Below, piece after piece: positions 96-6,968 of a DNA stretch of 39,278 nucleotides; position 1 is the first letter of the stretch; each line of letters starts with the position of its first letter. The position numbers were made by a program, and so were the translations under genes. The notes under the pieces are model-generated. The model did no database searches and was not told where the DNA came from. It saw only the letters and a program-made list of their open reading frames with translations. This stretch comes from Syntrophorhabdaceae bacterium (lineage in GTDB: Bacteria; Desulfobacterota; Syntrophorhabdia; Syntrophorhabdales; Syntrophorhabdaceae): positions 1-39,278 of the forward strand of contig JAGOOA010000009.1 in assembly GCA_017992765.1 (NCBI GenBank), given 5' to 3'.

Positions 96-175
96 AATAT
101 TCTTTAGCGAGCACGGCTCGCGAGAGGGGGAGTCTCTTCGGGCTTATGCCCGAAGAGGGGGCGACGTGAGCCCCA
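96..175. repeat. 80-bp direct repeat, copy 1, with two hairpins
   Basis: This 80-bp segment is base-for-base identical to 261-340. It contains a 6-bp stem (GCGAGC, loop ACG, GCTCGC) and a perfect 10-bp stem (CTCTTCGGGC at 134-143, loop TTAT, complement at 148-157), then a G-rich tail ending in GAGCCCCA. There is no ORF inside, so it is not an insertion sequence by itself. A separate 7-bp palindrome (ATATAAG, T, CTTATAT) lies upstream at 65-79. The element may be a REP/MITE-like or structured-RNA unit; its function is unknown. Confidence 0.85.
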
Positions 176-205
176 AAGATAAGGCAGCGGAGAGCGGAAA
201 ACGAG

Positions 206-253
206 AAGGTGAGAAGAGCAGAAGGTGAGAAGAGCAGAAGGTGAGAAGAGCAG
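206..253. repeat. Tandem 16-bp repeat, three units
   Basis: Three perfect head-to-tail copies of AAGGTGAGAAGAGCAG occupy 206-221, 222-237 and 238-253. The same words reappear in reverse complement near 2008-2035. It is a simple non-coding tandem array between the two 80-bp repeats. The whole of 1-308 holds only repeats of this kind and no gene. Confidence 0.85.
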
Positions 254-260
254 AGAGCAG

Positions 261-340
261 AATATTCTTTAGCGAGCACGGCTCGCGAGAGGGGGAGTCT
301 CTTCGGGCTTATGCCCGAAGAGGGGGCGACGTGAGCCCCA
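261..340. repeat. 80-bp direct repeat, copy 2
   Basis: Identical to 96-175, with the 10-bp stem arms at 299-308 and 313-322. This copy overlaps the 3' end of the minus-strand radical SAM gene, whose stop codon (309-311) and last nine residues or so are encoded by the repeat. That suggests the element arrived at, or was duplicated into, the end of that gene. Confidence 0.85.
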
Positions 341-5708: not shown

Positions 5709-6968
5709 TTACATTTCTACTATAACATCATAATCGAGGGTTTTCACTATTTTCCCGTTCCGCATCTCGCCGATAGCGCAATCGCCTCTGATAAAGGCGA
5801 TCCCGTCGATGTCCGGCGCCTGGATGATGAGCCGTCCAACCATCGAAGCATCTTCTTTGCCTTCGACGACCACCTTCATGGTTTTCCCTTCGAGCCTCGT
5901 GAGGCGCCTTCGGGATATCTCTTTCTGAAGCCCCATGACGGCATTGTAGCGGGCCTGCCTTACGCCCTTACTCACATGTCCGGGAAGGCGGTACGCAGGC
6001 GTCCCCTCTTCCTTTGAATACATGAAGGCGCCGAGCATATCGAACTCATGCTCCCTTATAAAATCCATGAGACCCTGAAACTCGCCCTCTGTTTCGCCGG
6101 GGAAGCCGACAATGACCGTTGTCCGCAGCACGGCATCGGGGATCTCTCTTCTGATCTTTGCAAATAATGCCGCGAGGTCGTCTTTCGTGCAGCCTCTCCT
6201 CATGAGCCCGAGGATCCTGTCCTCGGAATGCTGGATAGGTATATCCATGTAAGGGATGATCTTGCCGGAGCGCGCTATGAAACTGATCAGTTCATCATCG
6301 ATCCCCTTCGGGTGCATATAGAGAAGCCGTACAAGATAATCGCCTTCTGTTTCGAGAAGATCCTGAAGCAGCAGCTTTAATGTCATTCCTCCATGCCTCC
6401 CGTAGGAGGTGATATCCTGTCCTATGATGCTGATCTCCTGGTAGCCGTTCCTGATAAGCCATTCAAATTCCCTTTTAATATCTTCGGGGCCCCTGCTCCT
6501 CAAGCCTCCCCGGATAGCGGGTATGGTACAGTAACTGCACCGGTTATCGCATCCCTCCTGTATCTTGAGGTATGCCGTGGGTTTGCCCGTCAGCACCTTC
6601 CTCGGAAACGTTTCCGCAAAGGCGCCTGCCCTCATGAAAAGACCCTTTTTGTCGGAGAGCGCTGCGATATCGTCATACCAGTTCCGCCCGACGAAGAGGT
6701 CAACCTCAGGCAGAAGGCCCTGCAGCTTCTCTCCGTATCGCTCAACAAGGCAGCCGGTGACGATCACCTTTCTGCTTCCCCGCCCCGCCTCTTCAAGGAT
6801 CGTCTCTATTGATTCCTTTGCCGCATCGGCGATAAAGGCGCAGGTATTTATTACAACAGTGTCGCAGTCATCGGTGAGGATATGCCCCGCCCGCTCTAAG
6901 CTGTTGGCGATATACTCCGATTCGACGAGGTTCTTCGGGCAGCCGAGGCTGACGATCCTGAACCTCAC
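5709..6968 (-). CDS. rimO: Ribosomal protein S12 methylthiotransferase RimO
   Basis: A 419-residue methylthiotransferase that adds a methylthio group to the conserved aspartate of ribosomal protein S12. The N-terminal UPF0004 domain has C10, C43 and C73 for the auxiliary iron-sulfur cluster. The radical SAM cluster motif is C140, C144 and C147 (GCDNRCSYC). A TRAM domain forms the last 70 residues or so. The SLGCPKN start and the IPAIRG segment favour RimO over MiaB. The start codon is GTG with GAGGA seven bases upstream. It is separate from the lysS unit, with a 101-bp gap containing GCTCATGGCTCAT and CATGCG words. Confidence 0.94.
   Translation of the reverse strand: MRFRIVSLGCPKNLVESEYIANSLERAGHILTDDCDTVVINTCAFIADAAKESIETILEEAGRGSRKVIVTGCLVERYGEKLQGLLPEVDLFVGRNWYDDIAALSDKKGLFMRAGAFAETFPRKVLTGKPTAYLKIQEGCDNRCSYCTIPAIRGGLRSRGPEDIKREFEWLIRNGYQEISIIGQDITSYGRHGGMTLKLLLQDLLETEGDYLVRLLYMHPKGIDDELISFIARSGKIIPYMDIPIQHSEDRILGLMRRGCTKDDLAALFAKIRREIPDAVLRTTVIVGFPGETEGEFQGLMDFIREHEFDMLGAFMYSKEEGTPAYRLPGHVSKGVRQARYNAVMGLQKEISRRRLTRLEGKTMKVVVEGKEDASMVGRLIIQAPDIDGIAFIRGDCAIGEMRNGKIVKTLDYDVIVEM

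Follow-up and report, generated by a model that had tools for sequence, protein, structure and literature searches.

A family of multi-hairpin repeats without terminal inverted repeats, best read as small non-autonomous mobile elements, in Syntrophorhabdales and other bacterial lineages

The small, multicopy, intergenic hairpin repeats that occur singly and in clusters and are presumed non-autonomous include the GTAG-tagged repetitive extragenic palindromes (REPs), along with bacterial interspersed mosaic elements (BIMEs) and REPINs (REP doublets forming hairpins), which go with REP-associated tyrosine transposases (RAYTs or TnpA-REP). The repeat described here shares these general traits and lies at the start of a 39,278-nucleotide stretch (the window; contig JAGOOA010000009.1, positions 1 to 39,278, forward strand) of the Syntrophorhabdaceae metagenome-assembled genome (MAG) GCA_017992765.1, hereafter G000. 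A GTAG REP, however, is one palindrome of 20–40 bp, at whose foot a GTAG stays unpaired, and has a linked RAYT, whereas the present element is a chain of three to four distinct hairpins (HP0 to HP3) over 108–140 bp, the tetranucleotide at its foot usually reads ATAG and forms part of the HP0 stem, no RAYT is flanked by its copies, and nearly the same sequence recurs in different phyla.

The CGTC-tagged REPs are likewise dispersed palindromes found in several phyla with no dedicated transposase; as defined by Di Nocera et al. 2013 (PMC3733652), they have a stem of 8–9 bp, a terminal CGTC left unpaired and a CCA tail, whereas HP3 of our element has a 5-bp stem, carries the complement of CGTC within its GACGYRA loop, and is part of a hairpin chain. 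Similar features are seen at the ends of IS200/IS605 elements, which lack terminal inverted repeats (TIRs), carry hairpins near both ends and a short conserved end tetranucleotide, and have a sense or strand bias; unlike them, the element has no tnpA or tnpB in it or nearby, and Y1 transposases are absent from some copy-rich genomes. DDE-type miniature inverted-repeat transposable elements (MITEs) are also short, non-autonomous and intergenic, but the element lacks TIRs, although a few copies sit at the centre of separate, larger foldback elements whose own TIRs are long and imperfect (ATACCAATTCGG... and GTCGGGAYATCCC...; L248, L179, L216, L217, L253, L145 and L147). The element thus lacks the defining features of RAYT-linked GTAG REPs, CGTC REPs and DDE MITEs and matches no Rfam family; it has hairpins at both ends without TIRs, as in IS200/IS605-type elements, and a precise presence or absence at orthologous sites, as in mobile elements. 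It probably works like REPs/BIMEs or IS200/IS605 ends.

Taken as a whole, the repeat is best explained as a family of small (108–140 bp when complete), TIR-less, non-autonomous mobile elements, a reading to which we assign a probability of about 0.7; that the element is mobile and non-autonomous we consider very probable. The argument for mobility comes from a genome of another family in the same phylum (G072), in which a single strong copy separates an acyl-CoA dehydrogenase gene from etfB. The same two genes lie a few nucleotides apart in 12 congeners, all lacking the element, and this comparison of one occupied with 12 empty sites indicates that it moves. The insert measures 140 bp and has ATAGA on both sides, and the empty site has one TAGA. 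A second presence/absence pair, in Nitrospirae-type MAGs (L134/L176), again places the element at a stop codon, and insertion sites are short intergenic gaps.

The ends are defined as well. A full-length unit reads [A/G]TAG with HP0, HP1, the linker GAGAGGGGGAGG, HP2 and HP3-NNNAATAG, with unrelated sequence beyond. NNNAATAG follows HP3 directly in 52 of 188 copies (0.3 expected); copies in G043 invariably close with GCCCC-TNN-AAT, usually AATAG, before unrelated sequence begins, and four HP0-bearing copies of that genome start with ATAG after unrelated sequence. The ATAG-HP0 and HP3-NNNAATAG ends are not inverted repeats of each other, and no TIRs were found; pairing between the ends did not exceed permutation in most copies. 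At L243 (about 6862–6951), a copy stands between two direct copies of an unrelated stretch of about 85 bp, a possible trace of insertion or amplification.

Base pairing within the element is supported by alignment A2, which comprises 61 distinct copies drawn from many genomes and was used for pair counts: 92% of cells are paired, 11 pairs have changed on both sides, and the covariation score was reached by none of 500 shuffles. HP2 is the main source of this signal, with seven of its ten pairs changed on both sides and 97% of cells paired. The two central pairs of HP1 are a tandem G.A/A.G in 29 of the 61 copies and Watson-Crick in 31, either of which fits one helix. HP3, GGGGC-GACGYRA-GCCCC, is almost invariant across phyla; this is uninformative on pairing and suggests recognition of its sequence. 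These three covarying or near-invariant hairpins form a core of 69 bp. HP0 is present in a subset of copies: at its position 11 of 121 copies score at least 12 (0.4 expected from shuffles), and it is clear in 26 of 183 distinct copies. Many of these 26 copies, in several lineages and across phyla, start with [A/G]TAG and are 108–140 bp long in total. A distinct hairpin module, GGGTACCCGCTTGCGGGT (and GGGTACCCACGAAGTGGGT), interrupts the element in L098, L102, L107, L112, L126, L151, L157 and L174; its insertion points, the HP1 linker or HP2, are the same in several lineages. L069 and L103 carry a variant HP2 with an extra hairpin block, CACAGTCTTCGACTGTG...CCCAGCACAGCTGGG, common to several G043 copies.

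The source genome, a 2.42-Mb MAG in 71 contigs with 95% completeness, holds 33 matches by blastn and 43 by the covariance model R1, several of them perfect tandem arrays of 77–78 bp units adjoining N gaps. Copies were found in 25 of 40 relatives, all of the order Syntrophorhabdales, in which the family is abundant; across the phylum as a whole it is rare, with matches in 10 of 198 genomes sampled, five of them weak ones in genus g36. The latter, single matches in G060 and others, were rejected as copies, since the matched stretch is probably coding and is conserved at 98% identity across five genomes. A library of 84,980 species genomes was scanned for exact occurrences of the HP3 core GAGGGGGCGACGYRAGCCCC, of which an estimated two or so would arise by chance; among the matches listed are genomes labelled Nitrospirae, Troglogloeales, Nitrospira, Deltaproteobacteria, Syntrophus, Bdellovibrionales and Acidobacteria, taxon labels that can be wrong for MAGs. 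Three genomes of 2.0–2.3 Mb contain at least 127, 122 and 72 R1 matches, respectively. The Syntrophorhabdales and Nitrospirae-labelled sets differ in start base and linker, a difference that favours resident families and disfavours contamination. No Rfam covariance model matched the element, also at a permissive threshold, and no match was recovered from the viral contigs, plasmids and phages searched. A literature search for the HP3 core as a string found no paper, and the available portions of two REP surveys (PMC3733652, PMC12306157) do not describe the element. An earlier, sequence-only reading of the window had proposed a non-autonomous mobile unit or a structured RNA, to be checked by counting copies and by a covariance search; copies by the dozen in this genome and its relatives, compensatory base pairs, and a clean pair of occupied and empty sites all bear that proposal out.

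Within the window, the repeat and its surroundings comprise the following features.

62–103, + strand: HP0 of copy 1, an AGAATAT...ATATTCT hairpin around a GGACCTATA-type repeat, read from the sequence.
107–121, + strand: HP1 of copy 1, GCGAGC-ACG-GCTCGC, from folding, pair counts on 61 copies and the switch between tandem G.A and Watson-Crick pairs.
122–133, + strand: conserved G-rich linker GAGAGGGGGAGT of copy 1, near-invariant columns of alignment A2.
134–157, + strand: HP2 of copy 1, CTCTTCGGGC-TTAT-GCCCGAAGAG, from two-sided pair changes.
158–174, + strand: HP3 of copy 1, GGGGC-GACGTGA-GCCCC, stem and loop near-invariant across phyla.
About 197–260, + strand: purine-rich tandem array with an 8/16-bp period, between both copies.
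259–268, + strand: HP0 remnant of copy 2, the palindrome AGAATATTCT, from comparison of copy 1 with copy 2.
272–286, + strand: HP1 of copy 2, identical to copy 1.
299–322, + strand: HP2 of copy 2, identical to copy 1.
323–339, + strand: HP3 of copy 2, adjoining and overlapping the neighbouring gene at its 3' end.
309–1856, − strand: neighbouring gene, whose reading frame enters copy 2 and whose stop codon lies inside the repeat.

The two 80-nt copies (96–175 and 261–340) are 100% identical with starts 165 bp apart, so that the perfect direct repeat and the spacing with an enclosed tandem array were described correctly at the outset; the two hairpins then counted in each copy are in fact three (HP1, HP2 and HP3), with HP0 in addition in copy 1. 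For a 41-nt stretch of the repeat unit, allowing up to three mismatches, the chance expectation in the window is 0.00, and the unit folds at −44.5 kcal/mol (z −5.1). A 21-nt direct repeat upstream of both copies (48–68 and 245–265) shows that the duplicated unit takes in the upstream purine-rich tract. Beside the element, positions 1–95 of the window and L003, L012, L014 and L225 carry a mosaic of other short repeats, namely AGCTGATGGCTGA units, purine-rich GCGGAGAGC arrays and GGACCTATA palindromes, the last of which constitute HP0 in this genus.

The last codons of the neighbouring gene, whose product looks like a putative radical-SAM protein, are read from the repeat sequence. Among its orthologues, the element is present at the orthologous site in G001, G004 and G006 and absent from G002, the closest relative, whose protein ends ...FFAINNL* and whose site (L054, downstream of 3024) carries a different repeat of the AAATCCGAATATCTAAATCC type. 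The site in the congener G006 holds two HP3 remnants 152 bp apart, the second unit being degenerate, and the two-unit state is therefore old. The perfect identity of the G000 copies points to a recent re-duplication or conversion, in line with the recent duplication or gene conversion suggested originally, and the site may be pictured as an old insertion at the gene's 3' end that was duplicated with the upstream purine tract and then homogenised. That the second identical copy is instead a contig-end assembly error would accord with base 1 of the window being the end of its contig (C68), and with further arrays adjoining N gaps; given the two units at the G006 site and arrays of two or more units inside contigs of several genomes, we regard it as very improbable, and the family itself would be unaffected even if the copy number were wrong.

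Orientation relative to genes was scored on neighbours called from long open reading frames, with approximate start positions. The element is co-oriented with the downstream gene in a ratio of 57:24 (p 0.0003) and with the upstream gene in a ratio of 50:25 (p 0.005); between co-directional genes sense outnumbers antisense by 34:9. The ratio is 15:3 in G040, some of whose loci also belong to that set, and there the element end often lies a few nucleotides upstream of the ribosome-binding site. Many copies are located 10–35 nt upstream of a start codon.

This bias, the start-codon proximity and the strong covariation are what would be expected of a fixed cis-acting structured RNA, such as a leader, an attenuator or an mRNA-stabilising structure, spread by duplication and vertical descent only. 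We consider such an RNA unlikely in view of the clean G072 insertion, the tandem arrays, the lack of a function common to neighbouring genes, the lack of an Rfam match and a very patchy distribution, the 10 phylum genomes with matches including chance matches in coding sequence. About as improbable is a classical REP/BIME/REPIN system, with the hairpins as REPs spread by a RAYT of the same genome. Tens of small, palindromic copies between genes would suit it, the [A/G]TAG at the base of HP0 is reminiscent of the REP tag GTAG, and G000 does encode three Y1 transposases (Y1_Tnp) of about 340 aa (L050:106-426, L051:1501-1824 and L052:1501-1824). These three genes, however, are flanked by GGGGACG-type inverted repeats of their own, a TIRYT trait (PMC6006769, PMC3733652); at L052 the left one is repeated in tandem beside an N gap. 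Among Y1 loci, a copy of the element lies within about 1.5 kb at 2 of 33 and 0 of 29, with none flanked on both sides; G009 (99% complete) and G025 (97%) each hold at least 24 copies and no Y1 gene, whereas G018 and G028 have Y1 and no copies, and the unit contains three to four different hairpins. The TnpA-REP link raised by the sequence-only reading is therefore not supported.

Less probable still is an origin from an IS110/IS1111 (bridge-RNA) element or a reverse-transcribing one, which would account for a structured, sense-biased element with a short direct repeat at its ends and no TIRs. Bridge RNAs have large internal loops, and the element has none of that kind; moreover, neither an IS110 DEDD transposase nor a reverse transcriptase was matched in the five copy-rich genomes G000, G001, G002, G003 and G006. 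Each being missing from copy-rich genomes, both were rejected as a universal partner. A similarity to retrons (TTAGCGAG) was considered and dropped, G000 having no reverse transcriptase.

Against our preferred reading of a mobile element family stand several observations. No enzyme could be tied to the element, the Y1-free, copy-rich G009 and G025 included, and no Pfam family occurs in more than three of 117 neighbouring proteins, leaving no shared mobiliser or function. Most copies are without a clear HP0, and a closing stem between the left and right flanks shows neither covariation nor copy-specific complementarity. Base-level resolution was obtained for one insertion only, at which target duplication and element end are inseparable, and the sense bias could reflect selection or function rather than insertion chemistry.

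If the element is mobile, as we favour, an enzyme acting in trans would recognise its hairpins together with ATAG-like sites at both ends and move it as a folded single strand, in parallel with Y1 (HUH) transposases acting on IS200/IS605 ends and REPs. We offer this single-strand mechanism tentatively, at clearly less than even odds; the enzyme may sit elsewhere in the genome, belong to another family or have been lost. After insertion, sense copies between co-directional genes would survive best, which makes it probable that inserted copies also serve as folded leader or spacer RNA. Local copies multiply as tandem arrays. A bolder proposal, that the repeats form an unnamed class of TIR-less multi-hairpin elements conserved between phyla, moved by an enzyme other than a known REP transposase and with a second role as gene leader, we consider rather doubtful.

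Our best reading remains that these hairpin repeats, REP/BIME-like but distinct, make up a new family that is mobile, non-autonomous and devoid of TIRs. A short hairpin repeat is usually confined to one species and linked to a RAYT; this one keeps one strict design across phyla and reaches very high abundance in small genomes from groundwater and sediment, with no visible enzyme. It also accounts for contig breaks and gaps in these MAGs. With defined ends, a clean insertion and copy-rich genomes free of Y1 genes, what moves orphan REP-like elements becomes a testable question.
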